DNA of 64,000 bases from an uncultured Bacillota bacterium. GTDB taxonomy: Bacteria; Bacillota; Clostridia; Christensenellales; Pumilibacteraceae. Below the pieces are notes generated by a model, which did no database searches, had not been told where the DNA came from, and saw only the letters and a program-made list of their open reading frames with translations. Below are positions 22,770-37,126 of this stretch, piece by piece; the stretch's first letter is position 1; each line of letters starts with the position of its first letter. Made by a program: the position numbers and the translations under genes. The DNA lies in NCBI GenBank assembly GCA_949294845.1, contig CASFJH010000032.1:1-64000 (forward strand). The letters run 5' to 3'.

Positions 22770-23942
22770 TCAGCTCGCCCCTATAAAACGGCGTATGCGC
22801 GCCACCGCCAGCTCCAGCGACTTCATCGCCGTCGCGTACGAGCAGCGTATGAAGTTTTCGCCGCGCGGTCCGAACGCGCTGCCGGGTACGACCGCAACCT
22901 TCTCGCCGTAAAGCAGTTTTTCGGCAAATTCGTCGCCGTTCATGCCCGTGGAGGCAACCGACGGAAAAACGTAAAACGCGCCTTTCGGCTCAAAGGTATC
23001 GAGCCCCATGCTGCGGAACTCCGATACGAGATACCGCCGCCTCAGGTCGTACTTTTCGCGCATATCGGCAACCGTGGCGTAATTTTCCTGTCTGCCGCTT
23101 TCAAGCGCGGCAAGACCGGCGTACTGCGACATGGTGGGCGCGCAAAGCAGCGTGTACTGGTGGATCTTCAGCATACCGGCCGTCAGCTCCTGAGGCGCGG
23201 CTACAAAGCCGAGTCTCCAGCCGGTCATTGCAAACGCCTTTGAAAAACCCGATATCGTCACGGTGCGCTCGTAAAGCCCTTTTACGGTACCGGTGGCGCA
23301 GTGCCTTGCGCCGTAAGTCAGTTCGCCGTAAATCTCGTCCGAAATAATCATAAGGTCGTTTTCGATGACCGCGGGAGCTACCGCTTCCAGCTCATCTTTG
23401 GTCATGACCGCTCCCGTAGGATTATTGGGAAACGGAAAAATTATTACGCGCGATCTGTCCGTAACTGCGGCGCGTATTGCCTCGGGCGTCAGTTTGAATT
23501 CATTTTCTATACTGCACGGCACCGGAACCGGACGCCCTCCGGCGAGCTGAACGCACGGCGCGTAACTGACATAGCACGGATCGGGTATAAGCACGTCGTC
23601 CCCCGGCCGCACCAGAGTGCGCAGCGCCAGATCTATGCCCTCGCTGGCTCCCACGGTTACGATTATGTCCTTTTCGTCGTACTTCAGTCCGAAACGGCAG
23701 TCCAGATAACCGGCTATCTCGTGGCATAGCGCCGGCAGTCCTCTGTTGGAGGTGTACTGCGTATAGCCGCGCTGCAGCGACCTTACCGCCGCATTGCGCA
23801 CGCCCCACGGCGTTACGAAATCGGGTTCGCCCACGCCCAAAGACACGACGTCCGCCATTGTCGAGGCTACGTCGAAATATTTCCGGATACCGCTCGGCTT
23901 CATGTCGCGCACTACCGGATTGATCTTATCCTGATAATTCAC
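22770..23942 (-). CDS. Class I/II aminotransferase (PatA/AspC-like)
   Basis: A 390-residue PLP aminotransferase of the branch that includes Bacillus PatA and many aspartate/aromatic transaminases. Marks: SLGVGEPDFVTP (residues about 34-45), YTSNRGLPALCHEIAGYL, FPNNPTGAVM (about 170), SDEIYGELTYG (PLP Asp/Tyr) and ISGFSKAFAMTGWRLGF with the PLP lysine at about 231. The start is a GTG overlapping the Lrp stop (GTGA); the longer reading extends into Lrp. Third gene of the aconitase-Lrp operon. Substrate unproven. Confidence 0.9.
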   Translation of the reverse strand: MNYQDKINPVVRDMKPSGIRKYFDVASTMADVVSLGVGEPDFVTPWGVRNAAVRSLQRGYTQYTSNRGLPALCHEIAGYLDCRFGLKYDEKDIIVTVGASEGIDLALRTLVRPGDDVLIPDPCYVSYAPCVQLAGGRPVPVPCSIENEFKLTPEAIRAAVTDRSRVIIFPFPNNPTGAVMTKDELEAVAPAVIENDLMIISDEIYGELTYGARHCATGTVKGLYERTVTISGFSKAFAMTGWRLGFVAAPQELTAGMLKIHQYTLLCAPTMSQYAGLAALESGRQENYATVADMREKYDLRRRYLVSEFRSMGLDTFEPKGAFYVFPSVASTGMNGDEFAEKLLYGEKVAVVPGSAFGPRGENFIRCSYATAMKSLELAVARIRRFIGAS

Positions 23943-24430
23943 GGCTGTACTACCAGCCTTTTGGAGTCGGCGGGTTCGCAAAGCGTAACCCCCTCCGTCT
24001 TATACTTTTTGAGAATAAAATGCGTGGCGGTGGAAATGACTTTATCCATAAGCGAAAGCTTTTCGCTGACGAACATCGCCACTTCTTTGAGGGTACGTCC
24101 CTCGATAATTATTGCGAGATCGAAACCGCCGCTCATGAGGTACAGGCTTTTTACCTCGTCGAAAGCGCACAGCTCGGCCGCTATCGCGTCGAAGCCGCGC
24201 GAGTACATCGGCGAGACCTTGACCTCTATAAAAGCCTGAACGGTCTCTTTGCCCATTTTGGATTCGTCGAAAACGGGAAGGTACCGTATGATCACACCGC
24301 TCGATTCCAGATCTTCCACTGCGGCGCGCACTTCCGACTCGTCGCGGCCGAGCATGGCCGCCATCTGTGCGGGAGTAATGCGCGCGTCCTCGGATAAGAT
24401 GCCGATTATGTCGTTTTTCAGTTTATTCAT
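23939..24430 (-). CDS. Lrp/AsnC-family transcriptional regulator
   Basis: A 163-residue feast/famine regulator. An N-terminal helix-turn-helix spans about residues 10-52 (ARITPAQMAAMLGRDESEV, recognition helix near residue 30), followed by a ligand-binding RAM domain at about 70-145 (AFIEVKVSP, LMSGGFDLAIIIEG). Such proteins sense amino acids and often control neighbouring amino acid enzymes. It starts 2 nt after the aconitase stop and overlaps the aminotransferase, so it is likely to act on, or be tuned by, the product of that enzyme. Confidence 0.93.
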   Translation of the reverse strand: MNKLKNDIIGILSEDARITPAQMAAMLGRDESEVRAAVEDLESSGVIIRYLPVFDESKMGKETVQAFIEVKVSPMYSRGFDAIAAELCAFDEVKSLYLMSGGFDLAIIIEGRTLKEVAMFVSEKLSLMDKVISTATHFILKKYKTEGVTLCEPADSKRLVVQP

Positions 24431-24431
24431 A

Positions 24432-26357
24432 TTACTCTCCCAAAGCTCCCGACGCGATCGCGGCGAGCACTCCGCCGGCGAGAATTATATTCTTAAGCCG
24501 CGGCGAAAGCTTAAGCGTCGTTTTGAACCGGTATCCCTTGGTTTCGTTCTTTACCGTAACCGTACTGCCCTTGGCTATCTGCGCTCTGGCGTTCTCGATA
24601 ACCAGCACGTCGCCCTGCTCGATCTTCGAATAATCGGCGGCGTCCGAAAACTCAAGCGGCAGTATACCGTTGTTTATGAGATTGTCGCGGTGAATACGCG
24701 CAAACGACTGCGCTATGACCGCCTTTATGCCGAGGTAGAGGGGAACAAGCGCCGCGTGCTCGCGCGACGAGCCCTGACCGTAATTTGCGCCGGCGACGAT
24801 GAATCCTCCGCCCTTTTCCTTTGCTCGCGCCGCAAACGTGGGATCGGACGGGTTGAGGCAGTAATCGGAAAGATACGGTATGTTTGATCGGTACGGCAGC
24901 AGCTTGGAATTGGAAGGCATTATGTGGTCTGTCGTTATATGGTCCTCGAGCACGATAAGCGTTTCGCCGGATAAAGTGTCCGCAAGCGCATGATGCTCCG
25001 GAAATGGCTTTATGTTGGGTCCGCGCACTACCTGCACGTCGGAGAAATCTTCCGGCCGAAGTATGAGATTGTCGTTTACGGCAAACTTCTGCGGCATACG
25101 GATTTCGGGCAGGGGCTCGCATTCCGTCGGATCGGTCAGATAGCCGTTGATTGCCGAATACGCGGCCGTTTCGGGCGAAACGAGGTACACGCCGGCAGTA
25201 GCCGTTCCGCTTCTCGCGTAAAAATTACGGTTGAACGTGCGCAGAGAAACAGCGTTGTTCTTGGGCGACTGTCCCATTCCTATGCAGGGACCGCACGCAC
25301 ATTCGAGAACGCGCGCGCCGGCATTGACTATGTCGGCAAGCGCGCCGTTCGACGCAAGCATGGACAGCACCTGCCGCGAGCCGGGGCTTATTGTAAGGCT
25401 GACGCCCGGATTTACCGTCTTGCCCTTCAGAATGGCGGCGACTTTCATCATGTCGAGATAGGAAGAATTGGTGCACGAACCGATGCATACCTGATCGACG
25501 GCAATACGCCCTATCTCGCTGACCTTTTTGACCGCGTCGGGCGAATGAGGACAGGCGGCAAGCGGCGTAAGCGCCGAAAGATCTATCTCGACGATTTCGG
25601 CATACTTCGCTCTGCCGTCGGCTTTGAGCGGTCTGTAAACGTCCTCTCTGCCCTGCGCTTTCAGGAACGCCTTCGTCACAGAATCGGAAGGAAAAACCGA
25701 CGTCGTGGCGCCCAGCTCCGCGCCCATATTGGCGATGGTAGCGCGTTCGGGAACGGACAGCGTTTTTACGCCCTCTCCGCCGTACTCTATTATTTTGCCC
25801 ACTCCGCCTTTTACGGTAAGACGCCTCAGCACTTCAAGTATGACGTCCTTGGCGGAAACGTTTTTGCGCAGAGCGCCTGTAAGCTCCACCTTAACCACTT
25901 TAGGCATGGTAAGATGCAGCGGTCCTCCGCCCATAGCCACGGCGACGTCGAGACCGCCGGCGCCTATGGCAAGCATGCCCAGTCCTCCGCAAGTGGGCGT
26001 ATGCGAGTCGGAGCCGAGCAGCGTCATTCCCGGTATGCCGAATCTCTCGAGGTGAACCTGGTGGCATATGCCGTTGCCGGGCTTGGAAACCGAAATTCCG
26101 TGTTTCAACGCAACTGACTGAATATACGCGTGGTCGTCGGCGTTTTCAAAGCCCGTTTGCAGCGTATTGTGGTCTATGTACGCTACCGATTTATACGTCT
26201 TAACTTTATCGATGCCCATCGATTCAAACTGCAGATAAGCCATTGTGCCGGTAGAATCCTGCGTGAGCGTCTGATCTATCTTAATGGCGATCTCTTCTCC
26301 AGCCTTCATCTTTCCCGATACCAGATGGGACGAAATCAGTTTTTCAGCTAAATTCAA
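24432..26357 (-). CDS. acn: Aconitate hydratase (clostridial AcnA, fused swivel domain)
   Basis: A 641-residue aconitase, citrate to isocitrate. The LeuC-like part carries LLGSDSHTPTCGGLGM (about residues 114-129), CIGSCTNSSYLDM (about 289-301) and CACGPCIGMGQSP (about 353-365); the three cysteines bind the [4Fe-4S] cluster. The LeuD-like swivel follows on the same chain (EDHITTDHIMPSN near 470, GSSREHAALVP near 540), as in other short clostridial aconitases. TTG start with GGGGAGG six nt before. With pckA it suggests a partial citric acid cycle serving glutamate synthesis. First gene of an operon with Lrp and an aminotransferase. Confidence 0.95.
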   Translation of the reverse strand: MNLAEKLISSHLVSGKMKAGEEIAIKIDQTLTQDSTGTMAYLQFESMGIDKVKTYKSVAYIDHNTLQTGFENADDHAYIQSVALKHGISVSKPGNGICHQVHLERFGIPGMTLLGSDSHTPTCGGLGMLAIGAGGLDVAVAMGGGPLHLTMPKVVKVELTGALRKNVSAKDVILEVLRRLTVKGGVGKIIEYGGEGVKTLSVPERATIANMGAELGATTSVFPSDSVTKAFLKAQGREDVYRPLKADGRAKYAEIVEIDLSALTPLAACPHSPDAVKKVSEIGRIAVDQVCIGSCTNSSYLDMMKVAAILKGKTVNPGVSLTISPGSRQVLSMLASNGALADIVNAGARVLECACGPCIGMGQSPKNNAVSLRTFNRNFYARSGTATAGVYLVSPETAAYSAINGYLTDPTECEPLPEIRMPQKFAVNDNLILRPEDFSDVQVVRGPNIKPFPEHHALADTLSGETLIVLEDHITTDHIMPSNSKLLPYRSNIPYLSDYCLNPSDPTFAARAKEKGGGFIVAGANYGQGSSREHAALVPLYLGIKAVIAQSFARIHRDNLINNGILPLEFSDAADYSKIEQGDVLVIENARAQIAKGSTVTVKNETKGYRFKTTLKLSPRLKNIILAGGVLAAIASGALGE

Positions 26358-26417
26358 AGTTAACCTCCCCGTCCGATACGCGGTATACTGCCCGTACCGG
26401 CGTTTTTTCGTTTTTTT

Positions 26418-26446
26418 ATTTTACAACTATTTGCCGCAAAAGTCAA
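26418..26446 (-). promoter_or_regulatory. Sigma-A promoter of aconitase operon
   Basis: Minus strand TTGACT (26441-26446), 17-nt spacer, TAAAAT (26418-26423). Its -35 is only 8 bp from the divergent -35 of the small protein gene. Confidence 0.65.
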
Positions 26447-26454
26447 ATATCTGC

Positions 26455-26483
26455 TTGTCGTTTCGGCTAAATTGTGGTATACT
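26455..26483 (+). promoter_or_regulatory. Sigma-A promoter of small conserved gene
   Basis: TTGTCG (26455-26460), 17-nt spacer, TATACT (26478-26483). It is back-to-back with the aconitase promoter, so one bound protein could affect both. Confidence 0.65.
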
Positions 26484-26503
26484 GAGACGTAAAAGAGGTG
26501 CGT

Positions 26504-26767
26504 ATGCTTAAAATCTGGGCCAAAACGCTTGTCGATAAAGATAAAATCCGAAAGGACCTGATGTACAAACGTCCGGAGGCTTATTCTCCGGATAAATTCG
26601 ACCAGTATCTTATGGAGATATGCTACGAGCTCGATATCCCCACCCCCGTCGTTCTCAAATCGCACCGTCACAATTTCGCGCATTTTAACACGACGCGTTT
26701 CCGCCGCGACGACTTTGTAGAAAGCGTCGACTTCGACACGCTCGTACTGGAAAACGCCAGCGACTGA
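26504..26767 (+). CDS. Small conserved clostridial protein, function unknown
   Basis: An 87-residue soluble protein (MLKIWAKTLVDKDKIRKDL, with YSPDKFDQYLMEICYELDI, TPVVLKSH, and FRRDDFVESVDFDTLVLE further on). I recall near-identical small proteins in many Clostridia but no assigned function. The pattern suggests an alpha/beta domain with a conserved His-Asn pair (RHNFAHFN). ATG at 26504 is chosen over an upstream GTG because AAGAGG lies 5 nt before it. It has its own promoter and is followed by a terminator after a gap, so it is monocistronic. Confidence 0.8.
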   Translation: MLKIWAKTLVDKDKIRKDLMYKRPEAYSPDKFDQYLMEICYELDIPTPVVLKSHRHNFAHFNTTRFRRDDFVESVDFDTLVLENASD

Positions 26768-27100
26768 CCGCGCTGCCGTAGCTGGCAACGCCTGCCTCGC
26801 GCCGCACATTGTACCCGATTTTATATTGCCTGCCGCGCGCGTCCGTTATATACTTCACACAACGTATATTTTACCGCTTCCGTAGCTCTGTCGCTTATTT
26901 AACGGCTGCGCCTTGGGGTTATATACAGCAAAGTCCGCTCTAATGCGGACTTTGCTGCGTTTTTACCGTATTTTTAACGGAGCGGATCGCATGAAGTTTC
27001 CGGCTCCCGTCCGAGATATGCGACACAGGCATAAGGCGCGGAACTTAAACCGGCTTTCCCCGGTAATAAGCTTTCGCCTCCGGATTGCCGGGCGGCGCCG
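26768..27100. other. Intergenic region after small conserved gene
   Basis: About 330 bp between the small gene and the FtsX-like gene stop. It contains one strong plus-strand terminator (26926-26966). No coding frame with a ribosome-binding site or RNA family signature is visible; the rest looks like non-coding sequence of coding-like base composition. Confidence 0.6.
26926..26966 (+). terminator. Rho-independent terminator
   Basis: CAGCAAAGTCCGC and GCGGACTTTGCTG form perfect 13-bp arms around a 6-nt loop, followed by CGTTTTT. It sits 160 nt past the small gene stop. Confidence 0.8.
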
Positions 27101-29590
27101 TCACTCGGGGGATTTAAGAGCGGCGACCATATCTATTCTGAACACTTTTCTCAAAAGCAGCAGCGTGGCGGCCATAGAGAACAGGAAAGCCAGACCGAAG
27201 GAACTGAAAACGACGAGCGCGTTAAGGTTAAGCGGCAAGGAAATATTCATGCTTGACGCCACGGTTCCCACCCACCTGAACAGACCGTATCCGAGCGGCA
27301 GTCCGATCAGGCAGCCGATTATTGTCGTAACCACGTTCTCTATAATCAGCATACGCGAAGTTTCAAGCCGTCTGTAGCCGAGCACCATCAGCGTCGCTAT
27401 CTCCCTCGCGCGTTCGTGAACGTTAATCGCCGTAATGTTATAAATTACTGTAAGGGCGAGCACTGCGGCGCCTATTACAATAATAATCATGAAAATATTG
27501 AGAACGACGGCCGCTTCAAGCGCTCTGTCGGCCATTTCGGCCCGAGAGCGGATATATTTGACCGCGCTGATTTCAAAATCGTCCTTCGCCATGCCGCCCG
27601 CGTCCACGACATAGAAATTGTCGGCGTACATTGGCGCTTTAAGACCGGCGTAAACGTTATGACCGCAGTACACCGTCGGCATAAGATATTGAACGGCAAT
27701 GCCGGTGACGACGCTCTCGTACTGTCCGTATACGCCCGAAAGTATTATTTTATCGCCCGTCTCGACGCCGAGATTTTCAGCCATATAGTGCGGAAGAATT
27801 AGGCTGTCGCCGTCAATAGAGAGTACGTCGCCGTTTTTATCGGTAAGCTTTATTGCCGTACAGCCGGCCGGCAGCGAGGTAAGCTGCACCAATTCGTCGG
27901 TGTTGTCCCCGAATGAAACCGTGACCGAATACATCGGCGCGCCGACTACTTCGACCGGTATGCCGTCTATACTCGTATTGTCGAGCGGAAGCTTTTCGTC
28001 CGTCACTATCAGGTAATCGTAATTGAGGCTGCTTGCGTATGCGTCGACGGCGCAGTTTACGCTGTCGTACATACCTACGCCCATTATGAGCATCATAACG
28101 CTGCCTATAACGCCTATACTGGAAAGCAGTATTCTCAGCTTATTGCGGAAAATGTTGCGGAAGATCATCTTGCCGCCGAAGCCCAGTCTGCGCCATAACC
28201 AGCCTATTTTTTCCACGAATACCGAATGTCCCACTTTTTCTTTCTTGGGACGCATTGCCGCGGCCGGATTGAGCTTAAGCGTTTTCCCTATGGATACGCC
28301 TGCCGCCGAAGCCGCGACAATGCACGCAATGATTGCCGAAATCACTATATAACCGCCGTTTAGCGCATAGGAGAACTGCGGCATAACAAACTGCAGCGCA
28401 AATACATAATGATACAGCTTGGGCATGAAGAACATACCGGCAACGCCGCCTAAAGCAGTACCCAGTACGGCGGCAATAAGAGCGTATGCAGTATACATGA
28501 AATAAATCGAGCTCTTTTTGCGGCCTATAGCCTGCATAACCGCTATCTGCGCGCGCTCGTTATCCACCATCTTGCTGAGCGAAATAAACGTTATAACGGC
28601 GGCGACAATGAAAAACAGCGTGGGGATTATTGCAACCAGACTGCTTATCTGTCTGTAAGCCGACCTGAACGTGCTCTCGCTCGTTCCGTCCCCGAGCACA
28701 TAGCTCATCTTGGAAACATATACGGCAAAATCGCCCGTTTCGAGATCTATGTACGGATCCTCGTAATCGGCGAAAATTTCGTCGGGCGTAAGCTCGGTAT
28801 CCGCGACAAGCACCTGATTGTAAATATTCATGCCGCCGCTCATATCGGCGACATAGATGGGCGTTTCCATCCCTTCAACGTAAAAATAAACGGTGTCGGT
28901 CGTAGTCTGTATGTCGGAATACGGCGCTATTATAACGGCAAACTCGTCGCGCGCCGCCGATATATCCGACTGGTTTATCTTGTAAAGATATTCGGACGAA
29001 AGAAAAAATCCGCTTACCGTCGACTCCACATATCTGGCGTCGTCGTCATAGTATTGCGTATACTCGATGGTGTAGTTGTCTATTGTCAGCGACGAAACGT
29101 CCGGATTGCGGCTTTGCAGCGTAACCGACTTGACCTGCGGATTGAATATCTTTACCGTGTCTCCGATCGAAAGTCCGTTGGCTTCGGCAAAAGTGCGGTC
29201 AACGATACATTCGCCCGATTTTGACGGCGCTTTGCCCGAAGTGATATAGGGAACGTTTATTTCCTTCGTTTCGGTAAGCAGCACGGTTTCATACCGCGCG
29301 CCCTTATACTCAAACGACGTGTTTATGACGTAGCGTCCTTCCGCCGCCGAGCCGGAAACCTCCTCGGCCTTTTCTACCGCGCAGTCCCCGGCCGCTCCGA
29401 AAACGCCGGTCGCGTCGGCGAGCGCGGTCGTCTCGTAATAATCTTCGATATTGCTCTTAAGCGTGCCGGACGCCTCGTTCATTCCCGCAAACAGAAATGC
29501 TCCGACCGCTACTACCAGCATTATCGAAAGGAACTGTCCGATCGAGGAACGGATATTGCGCATAAGTTGTCGTAAGGCAAGCTTCACCAC
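27101..29590 (-). CDS. ABC permease with two FtsX domains
   Basis: An 829-residue MacB/FtsX-type permease. A first membrane helix (about residues 14-35) is followed by a roughly 270-residue outside domain (about 40-315), then three helices (about 318-340, 360-385, 412-435), then a second unit: a helix near 480, an outside domain of about 180 residues, and three helices near 690-715, 745-770 and 790-815. Typical FtsX text includes ERAQIAVMQAIGRKKSSIY and ERAREIATLMVLGYRRLET, the coupling helices. These systems move lipoproteins or peptides, or transmit force rather than transport. A GTG start overlaps the ATPase stop. Divergent from the giant exported protein. Confidence 0.92.
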   Translation of the reverse strand: MVKLALRQLMRNIRSSIGQFLSIMLVVAVGAFLFAGMNEASGTLKSNIEDYYETTALADATGVFGAAGDCAVEKAEEVSGSAAEGRYVINTSFEYKGARYETVLLTETKEINVPYITSGKAPSKSGECIVDRTFAEANGLSIGDTVKIFNPQVKSVTLQSRNPDVSSLTIDNYTIEYTQYYDDDARYVESTVSGFFLSSEYLYKINQSDISAARDEFAVIIAPYSDIQTTTDTVYFYVEGMETPIYVADMSGGMNIYNQVLVADTELTPDEIFADYEDPYIDLETGDFAVYVSKMSYVLGDGTSESTFRSAYRQISSLVAIIPTLFFIVAAVITFISLSKMVDNERAQIAVMQAIGRKKSSIYFMYTAYALIAAVLGTALGGVAGMFFMPKLYHYVFALQFVMPQFSYALNGGYIVISAIIACIVAASAAGVSIGKTLKLNPAAAMRPKKEKVGHSVFVEKIGWLWRRLGFGGKMIFRNIFRNKLRILLSSIGVIGSVMMLIMGVGMYDSVNCAVDAYASSLNYDYLIVTDEKLPLDNTSIDGIPVEVVGAPMYSVTVSFGDNTDELVQLTSLPAGCTAIKLTDKNGDVLSIDGDSLILPHYMAENLGVETGDKIILSGVYGQYESVVTGIAVQYLMPTVYCGHNVYAGLKAPMYADNFYVVDAGGMAKDDFEISAVKYIRSRAEMADRALEAAVVLNIFMIIIVIGAAVLALTVIYNITAINVHERAREIATLMVLGYRRLETSRMLIIENVVTTIIGCLIGLPLGYGLFRWVGTVASSMNISLPLNLNALVVFSSFGLAFLFSMAATLLLLRKVFRIDMVAALKSPE

Positions 29591-30285
29591 TCGATCTCCT
29601 CTACCGGCTTTCTTACCGCATTGGTTTCAATCTTCTCTATAGCGCCGCTGCGCACTCTTATTATCTTGTCAGCCATAGGCGCTATGAGCGAATTATGCGT
29701 GATGAGTATGACGGTTTTGCCCGACTTAACGTTTATATCCTCAAGCAGCTTGAGAACTTTTTTACCCGTCTTGTAGTCGAGCGCGCCTGTCGGCTCGTCG
29801 CACAGCAGCAGCAGCGGATTTTTCGCCACGGCGCGCGCTATGGCAACGCGTTGCTGTTCGCCTCCCGAAAGCTGCGAAGGGAAATTGTTCGCCCTGTCTT
29901 TAAGCCCCACCGCTTCAAGCGTTTCCGCCGGATCGAGATGGCCGGGCGACACCGACGCGGCAAATTCCACGTTTTCAAGCGCGGTAAGATTGCTTATAAG
30001 ATTATAAAACTGAAAAACGAACCCTACCTTTTCGCGCCTGTACATAGTCATCTTCTTGTTGGTATAGTTCGTTATATCCTCTCCCTGAACGATGACCGAG
30101 CCGGAGGTGGCTCTGTCCATTCCTCCGAGAATATTCAGAATCGTGGATTTACCCGCACCGCTCGCGCCGAGCACGACTGCGAACTCGCCCTCTTCCACCG
30201 TAAAATTCACTCCGCTAAGCGCGTGAATATCCACCTCTCCCATCTTGTATATTTTAGTTACGTCACGGAATTCTATCAGCGACAT
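29584..30285 (-). CDS. ABC ATPase, MacB/LolD family
   Basis: A 233-residue ATPase partner of the FtsX-like permease. Walker [11 protein letters not shown] (residues about 39-48), Q-loop FVFQFYNLI (about 89-97), signature [14 protein letters not shown] (about 138-151), Walker [13 protein letters not shown] (about 159-170) and switch VILITHNS (about 192-199). The GALD after the Walker B glutamate is typical of this subfamily. ATG with AAGGAGG. First gene of a two-gene operon. Confidence 0.95.
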
Positions 30286-30362: not shown

Positions 30363-30488
30363 TAAGCCGGTGTAACAATAAAAATAAAAGTTATTTCACA
30401 TTTGTATTTTTAAAAGTAAATTAATATCAATATAATGCAAAAAATAAAACGGCTTTGCATAAAATTTTCATTTTCCTGCGGTTAAACA

Positions 30489-30523: not shown

Positions 30524-33500
30524 ATGAAGTTTTTTGCAAAACGCTCACGGCTTATACTTGCGCTCATGCCGATAATGGCAATAGCGTTTTATACGCTTAC
30601 CTATAATAACTCTCTTAATGCGGATAACGCATATAAACCGGTAGAAAAGGTAGCCAATATCGTCGCGATGATGGACAAGCCCGATTCGGGAACGCCTTCC
30701 GATTACGGCGTGCTCGAAAATATCGCGATCGCCAATAAAATTTTGTATACCGCCGACTATTTCGAAGGTCATTCTTACGGGGAAGTCAAAGCAAGCATTG
30801 CAACGCAGAAGGTTTACAATATACGCAAAGTGAAAAACGGCGACGTCTTTATGCAGTCGGTTTCCACCTCTCCCTTCGTCAAGATCGCCGATCAGAAATA
30901 CGTTTCGGGAGATACATATCTCTACCGCGACGGCACGAATATCAGAAACGACACGGCTGAATTCGGCGAAGTAAAGGAGATGTCTCAGGACGGGTATCTG
31001 CAGAAATACGGAATTGTGCCGCGCGAGATAGCGAAATACGTTATCAATGAGCAAACGGTGCTCTCTTCCGCAGTCGAATCTTTTCCGGCAAAGGCGGGCG
31101 AAGGCGACTACGTTTTCCGGCTTGAGCTCGATCCGGACGCAGCAACCTCGTACTATGCAAACGAAGTGCGCACTCTTTCGGGCGCCACGGCAAAATATCC
31201 GCAGTTCCAATCGGTTACCGTCACAATAACTATAGACGGCAACTGGCTGGTCAAATCGTTTACCGTAAGCGAAATTTACGTTGTGGACAAGCCGTTCAAG
31301 GTGACCTGCGAGGCGAATCTGACCGAGACGTTTTCAAACATAAACGCCGGCCTCGATATACCAGAGGCCGAGCCTTTTCTCGCTTACGTTCCCACCGGAG
31401 AAACGGAAGATCAGACTGCCGCCGTCTCGCCCGTCCAGTTCCTCGGCACGGCTTTCGGCTCTTACCTGAACGGCGAGCCTCTTTACCTTGACGCGGACAT
31501 CCGTATTCCGGCATATAAATTCTCTCTGGATCTCAAAGCGGATATCGATCTTGCCGCAATGAGATTTGACCTGCTGCTCGACGACGAGATATACATAAGC
31601 TACCGCAGAGACAAGACCGCAACGGGAGTCGACGGCAACGGCGAAACCGTTTATAGCGACAACAGCAGAATTTATTTCAAGGCAGGCGGCATTTACGGCT
31701 GGATGCCGGTTTCGGCTTTCTCGCAGTCCTTTCCCGAACTGCTCGCTATGCTGCCCGATATCAGCCCCGGGCTGTCCGATAAGCTCTCGGGGCTCGATAT
31801 CGGCTCCCTGCTGGACGATCCCGCCTCATTGCTGGCCGGAGCGCAGCTGACGGTGGGCGAAGAATTTTCTACCGTAACGCTGCCCGTAAAAATCGGTTCG
31901 GTAACGCTTGACGTCGAAATCGAAGCCTATAACGAAGGCGGACTGCGTTCTCTAACCGCAGGCGCCGGATTGTTCAATCTGGCCGCCGACATAAACGTCG
32001 TTCCACTGCAGTCAAAGCCCGATATGCCTCAGAATACGGACTCCTACCCCGATCTCACCTTCCTTGCGGACATAATCGTCCCCGTTGCCAGAACGTTTAC
32101 GGGCGACTATTACGATTTCAATATCAGCGGCTTTGCGGAGGCTGCCGGCGAAAAATTCGATATAGACGGCACGGCTTCGTATAACCGCGACGAAAAATCG
32201 GCGAAAGCGGATGTTACCGTCGGCGCATACGGAACTGCTGTCGACGCAAAGCTCGCTTATGTCGGCGGAACTCTCTATCTGTCCTCCGACCAGCTGGCAC
32301 TGAGCGCCTCGGTTGAAGACATAAAGGCCGCGGCGGAAAAATTTGCCGGCGATTTATTGAGCGGCATAACGGAAACGGGACTTCCCGATCTGTCGGCGAT
32401 AGCGGCAAAAATAACGGGTGCCGAAAAAGGCGACGGCTGCGTAACGCTTCTTTTAAACGGAGCGACGATCGTAATCGAACTGGATGAAACGGTAACTGCC
32501 GTTTCGGTGACAACGTCCGATATAAACGGCTTCAGGTTTGACGGACGCATAGAGATAGCGATTGCCGACGCGCCGCGGACGGTACCCGTTCCGCAAAACG
32601 CCGTTGCCTTAAACGACGTTATGAATATTGTCGGGATTCTCACCGGCACCGATTTCAAAGGGGGCGCTTCCCTTTCCGGCAATGCCGCCATAACTTACGG
32701 CGGCTTTTCGGAAGCCGTTTGCGAAAGCCTTACCTTCAGCGCGGCTTTTAACGGTTCGGGCGACTTTTCGGCGGATATTTATGCCGATAATACGGGCATA
32801 AGCGGTTCGGTTACGGCGGCGGACGGCACGTTATACGTTTCGGCAGCAGGCTTCAACCTTAAGTTTGCGCTTGACGGATTGTCAGCTCCCGACCTTTCGG
32901 GCGTGCTTCCTCCCGAAATAGCTTATCTGGCCGACAACGGCTTAAAAGCTCCCCAATCGGTCCAGAACATAATCGCGCTTATAGGCTATATTAAGAGCCT
33001 GTCGGCGTCGGGCAACAACCTGACCGCCGAGATAGACTGCGGAACTCTGTCTCTCGTCGCCGACGTGACTTTCGGCGAGGAAATCCGCGCCGCCATAACT
33101 TTAAACGCCGGCGAGCTTTCGCTTGACGTTAACGTCGGCGCCGCGTTCGGCGCGCAATCGGTCGAAACTCCGACCGGCGTTTTCGTCCCCGTTGAAGGAG
33201 TATACGACACGCTGGCTTCGGTTTTTAAGGACAAGCTTCTGACTTTCGACGTCGAGGCCGCAGTTGAGGCAGGCACCTTCTCCGATACCGTTACCGCAGA
33301 CGGCAAGCTTCAGGGCGGACAGAACGGGCTTACCGCCTGCGCTTCGGTCGGACTGAGCGGCGCGGGACTGAACGCGCGCCTTACATATGCGGACGATATT
33401 CTCAGCGCCGCAGCCGGCAATATTGCCGTCAGCGCCTCCCGTACCGAGCTTGCCGATCTGATTTCGGAGTTTGCCGGTACATACGACGTATCTTCCGCCG

Positions 33501-36500
33501 ACCTGTCGGCGTTCGCCAAAAAAATACTCGGCGCGACCATCGGACAAGGCTTTGTTACGGTAAAGCTTACATACGGCGAAGTAACGCTGTCGTTTGCCGA
33601 CGGTCTGCTCGCTTACGCGCAGGCGGACCTTTCCGGTCTGACTGCCGGAGACGCGGCACTGGCGCTGACCGCTTCGCTGAGCATAAGCGCCGCCGAAACG
33701 CCTCTGACCGTAAGTAAACCCGATTCGACCGTTCCCCTTTCGCAGCTGATGTCGCTGTACGAAGATATAAAGCGGCTCTCCGGCTGCGACGGCTTCACCT
33801 TAACCGGCTCCGCGGCAATCGCGTTCGGCTCGCTCGCCGATACTCTCGATTACTCTGTCAAATTTAACAAAATAGCCGAATTCTCGCTCGACTACGCTCT
33901 CCGCAGCGCAGGTCTGTCTGGCAACGTGTCAAAAACCGCCGACGGATTTATCCGTATCTCCGCAGGCGATTTCAGAATAAAAACGCCGTACGAGGACAGC
34001 GGTTCGCAGACGGCGTTGCCCGAATTCCTGACCGAGCTGCTGCCGGCCGAGATATTCAGTTTAGCAGAGAACGGATTTGACGATATAAACGCCGCAATAG
34101 CAGACATAGCGGCTCTTAAAGGCCTGATAAAAGAATTTTCTGCCGATCAGTCGGGTATACGCATATCTTTGGCTACCGACCGCCTCTTTGTAAACGCGAC
34201 TGTAGTTACGGGACAGACGCTGTGTGCGGAAGCCGCCGTCACGACCGGATTTAACGGCTATAACGTGTCGATAGGACTAAGCGCCGCCGTGTCGGGCAGC
34301 GACGGGCGCATATCCGTTCCCGACGGCGATTATGCCGACGTTTTCGATCCGGTAAGCGTGTTGCTGCCGGCGATTGCGGAGGCAAAGACGTTAGCGGCAG
34401 ATTTCGCGCTGAACGCGGTCGCGCCTTACGGCAACGGCGGCGAAGTCGACTTTTCGGCTGAAGGCAATATAAAACTTAGCGTTTACGGCGGACAGCCGGC
34501 ATTTGCGCTGGACGTCAACGCTCTCGGTACGCCCGTCTCCGTTCGTTTAGCCGGCGGAAATTATTATCTCCAGATCGGCAGCCTCATGCTCAGACTGGAC
34601 GGGGGCGACAAACAGGCTTTCATTGACGCTCTGTACGAGAACCTACCCGCCTTTATCGGCGATCTGTTTGAAAAGCTTCTGACATTCGACGTCAGCGGTC
34701 TTACGGACGGTATCAAGACGGGCAGAACGGACTCGCAGACGACTTTTGAAGGAATAGACGTTACAGACGACGGCAAAGTCGTACTGCAGCTGGAAACCGG
34801 CGGCAGCCTCATAAAAATCAAGGTCGCCTATCCTGCGGACGGGTCGGTAAGCGGCGCGGAGCTCGAGCTGCACACCGCTGACGGAGCTGTTCTCAACGTT
34901 TCGCTCATTTCCCCGTCGGTATCGCCGTGCTACTCCCTGTCGGACGAAAACGGCTGTCTGTACGCGCCTGTCTCACCCGAAGATTATGTCGACGTCATGC
35001 TTTTCTCCGAATATTTCGCGGCGATAAAAGCCACCGTAGCTTCGGACGGATTCGAGCTTACTCTTACCGAAGACCTTACCGTCACACTTCCGGGAGTCAC
35101 TTACCTGGTTAACGACGGCATGACAATCGGCTCCGATAAGGCGATATACGACGAAAAAGGCAATCCCGTGACCGCTCCGATAACGCGCACCGTTACCATA
35201 TGCAAAAATACAGCCGAAACTCCTGCCGTGATACGTCTCGTACCCGAAGGCGTTATCGGACAGAACGGTTGGTTTATCAATATTTTCGCTCAATTTACCG
35301 TAAAACGCACCGAAGAAGTCATAGGCGTCGGACAAATCATACAAAGCCGCGAGCTGTCACAGAATATATCCTTCACCCTCGTCAACGAAGGCGGCAATAA
35401 GTGCGTTTATCTCGATTACGACGGCATGAAAGTAAAAGCCGGCTATAACGAGGTGCTGGGAATGTTGGCTTACGCGCGCGACATAATAGGAATCTCCGGC
35501 ACTATCCTCGACGATATTCCCGAGTCTTATTACAATGCGCAGCTCGATACTTCGATATTCGGCGATATGCAGCTTGCCGGTCTCGATTCGTTAAGAACGT
35601 CGGTTACCGAAATTCTTAAAAAAGCCGAAAGCATATTTAACGTTCTGTTCGGCTATCCGGCCGATCCTCAGTCGGGACTCTCCGGCTACGACGGAGCGCT
35701 GAACGCCTTAAAATCGTTCACGGAAGCGCGCGATATAGCCGAGCTTGCCGACATAATAGGACGTCTTAACACGGCGCTCGGCGAAAACGGCCTGTCGGGC
35801 GAATCCTCGTCGGGCGATATTATGGCTACGGTACAGTCGGTTATCGGAACCGTCGGCTCTCTGTCGCTTTCTTTTGAAAACGGCGAGCTTTCCGTCGCAA
35901 TCCCCGACGAAGCGGGCGTTTCTCCTGCGGTTATCTCGCTTTCGGCGGCAAACGGCAAACTCGCTTCCCTGTCCGTCGGCGGTCTTTCGTTCGGGGAAAC
36001 GTCCGTCAACGGAGCGGTCGCCCTTAACACCGACTCGGTTACGGTAGCCCCTCCCGAAGGCGGCGACGCGACTTACGACTCGGTCGACAGTAACGGTGAG
36101 CGGCTGTATTACAGCGATTTCAGCTCGGTCAACAACCTCTTCGAGGATCTCATAAATACCGCCGACCTTAAAGCCTTCCATATCGGCGGCGCAAACAATG
36201 CCGAGAAGGGCACGATAGCCATGACGATTCCGGAGGTCATAGGTATTTCGTCAAGCATAGGCATAAATATTCCGTTCACCGTCAAAGTGCAGCTCGTGCA
36301 GGATTCGGAAGGCACTTTCAAGCCGCTGGTATATGTGCGGCTCGAGGTTCCTTCCTTCCCTCTCGTCGTTACCGAAAGCATTTCGTCGCTGTATTTCTAT
36401 GACGGAATGTTCCTGTTCACGCGCACCACGTCGGAAACCAAATATTCAACGCCCGACTGGAACGATACCACTTACTGGACTAAGACGGAGTATGTAAAGG

Positions 36501-37126
36501 CTACTACCGATACGCTTCTGCTTAAAGACGCTAACGGTCAGCTCGACATAACAAATATAATGAAATATGTGTACTTCATGCTGCCGCTCTCGTCCACCGT
36601 TCAGGATCCTATCAATGAAGCTATTCAGAACGGAATCACAAAAGACTTCTCGCAGTCGGAACAGATACTCAATTACTACGGCTACCGCAACGGAAATTAC
36701 CGCCTCGGCATAGATGTTTCCGAAATCTCGCGTATCGCTGAGCTTAACGACGCGAATATTACATTAAACACCAAGCCGGCGGAAGGCGGCGGAAATTATC
36801 TCGACAGACTGCAGGCCGATATGACCTTCCTCTACGGTACGACAGGTATTGCCAAAGGCATTAAGCTTTCGGTAGACGGTTATCTCGTAAATCCCGGTTC
36901 AAGCGCCGGAGATATAACTTATTACGATCCTACTCGTCCGAACAACAGTTGTCCGGACAAACTCAGCGGCTGGCTGATAAATAACCACTACCACCGCGAC
37001 GGCGTATATACCGAGGATATTACCGTTATACCTTCCATGATGGCTAAAATCGTCGGCGGAGGCACTATAAGCGGCGCCGGCACAATAGACAGCCCTTACT
37101 CCCAGTACTCCTGCAACAGCAAATAA
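30524..37126 (+). CDS. Giant exported repetitive protein (about 2,200 residues)
   Basis: An exported protein of about 2,200 residues with no family I recognise. The N-terminus (MKFFAKRSRLILALMP, hydrophobic to about residue 26, then NSLNADNAYK) is a signal peptide or signal anchor. Three repeats of about 380 residues begin near residues 572, 949 and 1337: a beta hairpin (LAYVGGTLYLS; LTYADDILSAA; LAGGNYYLQIG), a helical stretch (SVEDIKAAAEKFAGDLLSG; SRTELADLISEFAG; KQAFIDALYENLP), then a long beta region with alternating hydrophobic residues. A shorter related unit may begin near 336. The last 370 residues are a separate aromatic beta-rich domain. No LPxTG, SLH or lysin motif and no lipobox. 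No ribosome-binding site precedes ATG 30524; an upstream in-frame ATG at 30455 would lie before the promoter. Elongated surface protein; a lipid-groove fold of AsmA/TamB type is a guess. Confidence 0.75.
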   Translation: MKFFAKRSRLILALMPIMAIAFYTLTYNNSLNADNAYKPVEKVANIVAMMDKPDSGTPSDYGVLENIAIANKILYTADYFEGHSYGEVKASIATQKVYNIRKVKNGDVFMQSVSTSPFVKIADQKYVSGDTYLYRDGTNIRNDTAEFGEVKEMSQDGYLQKYGIVPREIAKYVINEQTVLSSAVESFPAKAGEGDYVFRLELDPDAATSYYANEVRTLSGATAKYPQFQSVTVTITIDGNWLVKSFTVSEIYVVDKPFKVTCEANLTETFSNINAGLDIPEAEPFLAYVPTGETEDQTAAVSPVQFLGTAFGSYLNGEPLYLDADIRIPAYKFSLDLKADIDLAAMRFDLLLDDEIYISYRRDKTATGVDGNGETVYSDNSRIYFKAGGIYGWMPVSAFSQSFPELLAMLPDISPGLSDKLSGLDIGSLLDDPASLLAGAQLTVGEEFSTVTLPVKIGSVTLDVEIEAYNEGGLRSLTAGAGLFNLAADINVVPLQSKPDMPQNTDSYPDLTFLADIIVPVARTFTGDYYDFNISGFAEAAGEKFDIDGTASYNRDEKSAKADVTVGAYGTAVDAKLAYVGGTLYLSSDQLALSASVEDIKAAAEKFAGDLLSGITETGLPDLSAIAAKITGAEKGDGCVTLLLNGATIVIELDETVTAVSVTTSDINGFRFDGRIEIAIADAPRTVPVPQNAVALNDVMNIVGILTGTDFKGGASLSGNAAITYGGFSEAVCESLTFSAAFNGSGDFSADIYADNTGISGSVTAADGTLYVSAAGFNLKFALDGLSAPDLSGVLPPEIAYLADNGLKAPQSVQNIIALIGYIKSLSASGNNLTAEIDCGTLSLVADVTFGEEIRAAITLNAGELSLDVNVGAAFGAQSVETPTGVFVPVEGVYDTLASVFKDKLLTFDVEAAVEAGTFSDTVTADGKLQGGQNGLTACASVGLSGAGLNARLTYADDILSAAAGNIAVSASRTELADLISEFAGTYDVSSADLSAFAKKILGATIGQGFVTVKLTYGEVTLSFADGLLAYAQADLSGLTAGDAALALTASLSISAAETPLTVSKPDSTVPLSQLMSLYEDIKRLSGCDGFTLTGSAAIAFGSLADTLDYSVKFNKIAEFSLDYALRSAGLSGNVSKTADGFIRISAGDFRIKTPYEDSGSQTALPEFLTELLPAEIFSLAENGFDDINAAIADIAALKGLIKEFSADQSGIRISLATDRLFVNATVVTGQTLCAEAAVTTGFNGYNVSIGLSAAVSGSDGRISVPDGDYADVFDPVSVLLPAIAEAKTLAADFALNAVAPYGNGGEVDFSAEGNIKLSVYGGQPAFALDVNALGTPVSVRLAGGNYYLQIGSLMLRLDGGDKQAFIDALYENLPAFIGDLFEKLLTFDVSGLTDGIKTGRTDSQTTFEGIDVTDDGKVVLQLETGGSLIKIKVAYPADGSVSGAELELHTADGAVLNVSLISPSVSPCYSLSDENGCLYAPVSPEDYVDVMLFSEYFAAIKATVASDGFELTLTEDLTVTLPGVTYLVNDGMTIGSDKAIYDEKGNPVTAPITRTVTICKNTAETPAVIRLVPEGVIGQNGWFINIFAQFTVKRTEEVIGVGQIIQSRELSQNISFTLVNEGGNKCVYLDYDGMKVKAGYNEVLGMLAYARDIIGISGTILDDIPESYYNAQLDTSIFGDMQLAGLDSLRTSVTEILKKAESIFNVLFGYPADPQSGLSGYDGALNALKSFTEARDIAELADIIGRLNTALGENGLSGESSSGDIMATVQSVIGTVGSLSLSFENGELSVAIPDEAGVSPAVISLSAANGKLASLSVGGLSFGETSVNGAVALNTDSVTVAPPEGGDATYDSVDSNGERLYYSDFSSVNNLFEDLINTADLKAFHIGGANNAEKGTIAMTIPEVIGISSSIGINIPFTVKVQLVQDSEGTFKPLVYVRLEVPSFPLVVTESISSLYFYDGMFLFTRTTSETKYSTPDWNDTTYWTKTEYVKATTDTLLLKDANGQLDITNIMKYVYFMLPLSSTVQDPINEAIQNGITKDFSQSEQILNYYGYRNGNYRLGIDVSEISRIAELNDANITLNTKPAEGGGNYLDRLQADMTFLYGTTGIAKGIKLSVDGYLVNPGSSAGDITYYDPTRPNNSCPDKLSGWLINNHYHRDGVYTEDITVIPSMMAKIVGGGTISGAGTIDSPYSQYSCNSK

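Follow-up and report, generated by a model that had tools for sequence, protein, structure and literature searches.

A giant gene in the window

The DNA analysed here, referred to as the window, is a stretch of 64,000 nucleotides from the draft genome of an uncultured Bacillota bacterium (Clostridia, Pumilibacteraceae; assembly GCA_949294845.1, contig CASFJH010000032.1; 1.69 Mb in 91 contigs, 90% complete). It carries a giant gene, present in one copy in its own genome, whose 2,200-residue product is predicted to begin with a conserved domain, D0, after which come about eight more LolA-like units (Table 1); the final two of these are tentative. An upstream in-frame TTG at 30455 is an alternative start that would add 23 residues. 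The two genes of an FtsX-type ATP-binding cassette (ABC) pair lie divergently beside it, and a scan of the window for RNA families and tRNAs found none.

Searches of Pfam and NCBIfam with the whole protein matched no family, SLH included, and a sequence search of the PDB gave no match; with alignments of the N-terminal domain and of the repeat units, Pfam and the PDB gave no usable match. Profiles of PF07161 (LppX_LprAFG) at E 1, PF03548 (LolA) at E 0.01 and DUF6612 (PF20316) had no match in the source genome. Neither a lipobox at the N-terminus nor an LPxTG motif at the C-terminal end is present, and about residues 8-28 are hydrophobic. The initial annotation, made from the letters of the window, had described an exported protein with a signal segment, lacking lipobox, LPxTG and SLH domain and belonging to no recognised family, and at the level of sequence this was borne out. 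The membrane segment is probably an uncleaved anchor.

Repeat architecture

The presence of repeats beyond chance was confirmed by a BLAST self-comparison, in which residues 573-933 matched residues 949-1337 (E about 1e-30, 27% identity). When profile searches were iterated over 20 relatives, matches recurred at half of the 380-residue period, and a half-module profile detected seven units of about 190 residues, starting near residues 380, 578, 766, 954, 1139, 1343 and 1737 (E 1e-14 to 1e-26). As a unit spans about 190 residues and recurs at half-period steps, the 380-residue modules are pairs of units. Three such modules had initially been placed from about residues 572, 949 and 1337; the repeat is real, but 572 and 949 mark the starts of units that lie two units apart, and near 1337 only one further unit was found instead of a third module. 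Alignments of overlapping repeat windows (A3, A6) were misaligned through self-identity and were dropped.

Predicted fold

A model of residues 1-892 was made with AlphaFold2 from an alignment of 28 sequences (A7; relatives from named public loci, register checked). Its mean predicted local distance difference test score (pLDDT) was 75, with values above 90 over most of residues 50-290. All four modelled domains, D0 to D3, have a helix, about six strands, helices and five strands. In D0 these are helix 63-75, six strands, helix 155-162 and five strands; in D2, helix 512-525, six strands, helices 597-628 and five strands, with D1 and D3 alike.

The top match of Foldseek in the PDB was LolA 2w7q (E 6e-6), and the ten best entries found by VIA-align were all of the LprG/LppX/LprF, LolA or ependymin type (Z 9.7-11.9). 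LprG, LppX and LprF were placed on residues 59-288 (Z 11.1-11.9, 169-185 residues, 3.9-4.6 Å), while ependymin-type and LolA proteins were placed on D2 (Z about 8-11). A search of a viral structure library gave no convincing match.

In the models, the domains have the N-terminal helix, the curved, antiparallel 11-strand (6 + 5) sheet and the intervening helices of the LolA/LppX superfamily (CATH 2.50.20), and D0 and D2 match known structures above background over most of the domain. The LolA-like protein GerS is reported to have an 11-strand topology with an N-terminal helix (PMC8496864), and the ependymin-related EPDR1 is assigned to the LolA fold superfamily (PMC6363788). A LolA/LprG/LppX half-barrel is a well-supported prediction for D0-D3, and can be extended by sequence relation to D4-D6 and tentatively to D7-D8. 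The model of residues 1271-2200 has a pLDDT of 50, therefore its best matches, LprG on residues 1484-1851 and LolB on residues 1856-2124, are leads only. The proposal of modules from an unrecognised family stands insofar as no named sequence family was matched, but the predicted fold is already known. The final 370 residues, initially described as distinct, do not clearly form a module apart, since the unit profile extends to residue 1902 and the low-confidence model resembles LprG and LolB; they are rich in aromatic residues compared with the middle repeats, but not with the first 300 residues (10.5% versus 11.7% F+W+Y).

In D1-D3, alternate strand positions differ by 2.9 to 4.4 in mean hydropathy, versus 1.3-1.9 in within-strand shuffles (p below 0.0005). 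Two-faced strands of this kind are expected where a sheet has one apolar face. Together with the lack of such a difference in D0 (below), they fit repeats whose concave side is apolar and a D0 with another kind of surface.

Table 1. Features of the giant gene and the adjoining ABC genes (positions in the window; residues of the giant protein).
Feature	Position	Strand	Basis
Giant gene, tandem LolA-fold protein (predicted), 2,200 residues	30524..37126	+	Open frame from ATG; homologues in genomes of the family
N-terminal membrane segment, residues 1-27	30524..30604	+	Peak hydropathy of the protein, basic flank; low-confidence model helix 2-26; relatives have a membrane segment or lipobox at the matching place
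D0, conserved N-terminal LprG/LppX-like domain, residues 44-290	30653..31393	+	pLDDT mostly >90; LprG 3mh8 Z 11.9 (181 residues), LppX 2byo Z 11.4; stand-alone versions exist
D1, LolA-like unit, about residues 300-495	31421..32008	+	Unit profile; model with helix, strands, helices, five strands
D2, LolA-like unit, about residues 508-692	32045..32599	+	About 512-698 match ependymin 8i34 (Z 11.0) and LolA 8v1k (Z 9.5, 151 residues) and 8orn (Z 9.4); 11 strands modelled
D3, LolA-like unit, about residues 694-880	32603..33163	+	Unit profile; 11 strands, lower model confidence
D4, unit, about residues 884-1068	33173..33727	+	Unit profile match 954-1116, E 1e-22 to 1e-25
D5, unit, about residues 1070-1268	33731..34327	+	Unit profile match 1139-1318, E about 3e-17
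D6, unit, about residues 1271-1480	34334..34963	+	Unit profile match 1343-1521, E about 2e-14; low-confidence model
D7, unit with large helical insertion, about residues 1484-1851	34973..36076	+	Unit profile 1737-1902, E about 3e-16; LprG-like Z 8.1, model with pLDDT 50
D8, C-terminal domain, probably LolB/LolA-like, about residues 1856-2124	36089..36895	+	LolB Z 7.2 and 6.6, low-confidence model, tentative; conserved in relatives
ABC ATPase, not counted in the system	29584..30285	-	ABC_tran; adjacency to giant gene not kept
FtsX-type permease, not counted in the system	27101..29590	-	FtsX; relatives occur away from giant gene

Relatives of the giant protein

Of 74 genomes of the same family, 44 have a homologue; with a 21-sequence N-terminal alignment as query, the count for the order was 77 of 297. 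At class level 10 of 391 genomes had a match, nine of them from the same order and one, with a single-domain protein, from outside it. At the order-wide matches the shortest frames encode single domains of about 250-400 residues, and the longest has 6,238 residues (G265:C3:27249); another of the longest (L111 2405-19999) has 5,888 residues and 19 detected units. When named genomes were searched by back-translation, the giant protein alone gave no match and a narrow alignment gave 16 loci; the named loci with relatives belong to Clostridia metagenome-assembled genomes, whose records we read as indicating a gut origin.

Among 41 homologous proteins of 1,221-5,865 residues, 2-19 units were detected per protein, at spacings of mostly about 190-200 residues and with medians mostly of 180-225 residues, and protein length correlated with unit number (r 0.77). 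The units vary, with 11-24% identity to one unit of the giant protein. D0 is its most conserved part, the C-terminal region is also kept, and single-domain proteins of the D0 type exist alone. Two D0-like single-domain lipoproteins are encoded by tandem genes in genomes of family f6 (L167, L168).

Most relatives have an N-terminal membrane segment. A lipobox was found by pattern in L054, L093, L108 and L109 and by eye (LPGC) in L057, and longer N-terminal tails precede the membrane segment in L101, L104 and L110. An Omp85 search gave matches in seven control genomes and none in the source genome, therefore an outer membrane is unlikely and the source organism probably has a single membrane.

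Gene neighbourhood

The initial annotation had suggested that the divergent ABC pair may be the partner of the giant protein and that homologues should be checked for such a pair always lying next to them. It does not: the pair is beside the giant gene at none of the 40 loci of relatives, and among 41 loci the window is alone in having it directly alongside. The giant gene is also present while a close FtsX relative is absent in the sister species (G030), in genus g3 and in most of genus g8, and relatives of the window's FtsX occur elsewhere in genera g2 and g6; either gene can be present while the other is missing. Lack of conservation of the gene and its ABC neighbour had been named as evidence against the proposal; the adjacency is indeed unconserved, but the giant gene itself is conserved in relatives. 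A conserved ABC partnership is therefore not supported, although the two could still act in trans. Export of the LolCDE-LolA type, in which a carrier gene would be conserved with an FtsX-type ABC transporter, is likewise not supported, as this was not found in the relatives.

In genus g6 (L143, L144) the block of aminotransferase, aconitase, FtsX and ABC ATPase genes seen at 22770-30285 of the window is conserved, and a UppP-like gene lies near the ATPase at the place held in the window by the giant gene. The giant gene may therefore have moved into the window locus. The giant gene and an FtsX gene are about 4 kb apart in G020. In two genomes of genus g2 (G013, G017), the gene directly upstream of FtsX encodes a single-domain relative of D0 (L140 775-1536; L141 2909-3730), and no gene matching the window's ATPase was seen between the two.

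Other genes were noted at these loci. Near the FtsX locus of genus g2 (L145, L147, L148 and others), collagen-like GAT-repeat surface proteins and a TetR-like regulator adjoin the ABC pair. In family f20 (L096, L098, L100, L103, L106) the genes flanking the giant gene are a small conserved one, whose product in L098 is a lipoprotein about 190 residues long, those of a two-component system and, in L098, one for a secreted endonuclease-like protein with immunoglobulin-like repeats.

Possible functions

The function proposed here is inferred, and the fold comes from prediction. With close to even chances, in our estimate, the giant protein is a membrane-anchored, wall-side string of about nine LolA/LppX-fold cups that bind hydrophobic ligands. 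Its N-terminus would be held in the membrane with D0 adjoining it, followed by about eight hydrophobic half-barrel cups, and the pocket of each repeat cup would take up one lipid or another hydrophobic molecule. The chain could capture such ligands outside the membrane and hold them or pass them between membrane and surface, as the one-domain LprG, LppX and LolA do in two-membrane bacteria. A pocket for hydrophobic ligands is given as the unifying feature of the LolA superfamily (PMC6363788), and LprG binds triacylglyceride and carries it between membranes (PMC4709180). Estimated from domain size, the chain is in principle long enough to cross a Gram-positive wall. An elongated surface or bridge protein had been suggested initially: an exported, multi-domain and probably elongated surface protein fits the data, but the bridge enters only as a relay, in which, in bacteria that have no outer membrane, about nine cups (some twenty or more in the largest relatives) would reach from the membrane through the wall, each handing lipids or lipid-linked molecules on to the next. 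This extension of the proposal we consider improbable.

Several results weigh against ligand-binding cups. The predicted template modelling score of the model (0.45) does not fix the domain arrangement, and no transport partner gene is conserved beside the giant gene in relatives. The strands of D0 are not two-faced compared with shuffles (p 0.15-0.53), and since this most conserved domain has no apolar face, it may bind something else. The apolar face of D1-D3 would fit a packed core as well as a cavity. Profile-profile comparison gave no links between D0, the units, the C-terminus, DUF6612 and LolA-like sets (D0 against DUF6612, E 0.005, probability 7%), but it had no power and is uninformative because its own positive control, DUF6612 (which we take to be LolA-like itself) against the LolA set, failed too. 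LolA-fold proteins can also act through protein contact, as GerS does on CwlD and RseB on RseA.

The main rival is a protein-binding surface stalk or adhesin, in which LolA-fold beads no longer bind lipids and serve as spacers, carrying a C-terminal binding part outwards beyond the wall. The variable copy number and length are typical of length-tuned surface proteins, and the diversity of the units, the lack of a conserved partner gene and the conserved C-terminal region agree with it. However, the most conserved part is D0 at the N-terminus rather than the distal end, a spacer role makes no sense for the stand-alone D0 proteins, and the repeats have retained an apolar sheet face. We regard a stalk as rather unlikely. 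Less likely is an outer-face scaffold or sensor, in which D0 would bind an envelope enzyme or regulator and the repeats would add docking sites. GerS is a precedent in a Clostridia species, as it activates the amidase CwlD by protein contact (PMC8496864), and RseB binds RseA (PMC6363788); the absence of an apolar face in D0 and the longer N-terminal tails of some relatives could also be explained in this way. On the other hand, a single partner hardly accounts for many similar units, and no amidase or anti-sigma gene was recognised among the sampled neighbours.

The possibility that the giant protein is the wall-side partner of the divergent ABC pair, taking hydrophobic cargo from it as LolA does from LolCDE, has been largely refuted as a conserved arrangement and is very improbable. 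It draws on the adjacency in the window, on the D0 relatives upstream of FtsX in genus g2, and on the known pairing of LolCDE-like transporters with LolA-like partners, proposed also in Borrelia (PMC13078400). Against this stand the 40 loci without the pair, the UppP-like gene in the block of genus g6, and the genomes that have the giant gene and lack a close FtsX relative.

The LolA fold is known mostly from single-domain carriers, many of which serve a second membrane, whereas the long membrane-anchored arrays described here occur in Clostridia, apparently of the gut, that probably have no outer membrane, and no family library searched names them. In the open-licence papers searched, as far as their extracts go, no description of tandem LolA-fold arrays was found, and as only such papers were covered this is no proof of novelty. 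Should the cups bind lipids, the arrays would offer a direct example of lipids being handled across the wall of a single-membrane cell; otherwise, the LolA fold would have been put to new use as a surface scaffold of adjustable length. In both cases, a family of large unnamed proteins gains a predicted fold and a testable hypothesis.

Comparison with known systems

Repeating beta-groove proteins (Vps13 and relatives) are, like the giant protein, long, repetitive and beta-rich, with lipid handling proposed. Their repeats have five strands each (PMC7613979) and form a single groove, whereas the units modelled here are 11-strand domains of about 190 residues that also contain helices, and nothing indicates that they join into a continuous groove, so the AsmA/TamB/Vps13 relationship raised initially is not supported. 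Even a relay along the chain would use separate half-barrels instead of one groove. GerS of Clostridioides difficile is a LolA-like lipoprotein within Clostridia and shares the N-terminal helix and 11 strands with the modelled domains (PMC8496864), but it is one small, domain-swapped protein that activates CwlD, and is likened to the giant protein by fold. LolA and LolB (PF03548) have the half-barrel in common with D2 (LolA structures, Z about 8-9.5), but are single domains serving an outer membrane, which the host of the giant protein probably lacks. The best structural match of D0 is with the mycobacterial lipoproteins LprG, LppX and LprF (PF07161), at 6-12% identity. These are single-domain and lipid-anchored, while the giant protein has about nine domains and a membrane segment in place of a lipobox, but both are anchored in the membrane and face outwards.

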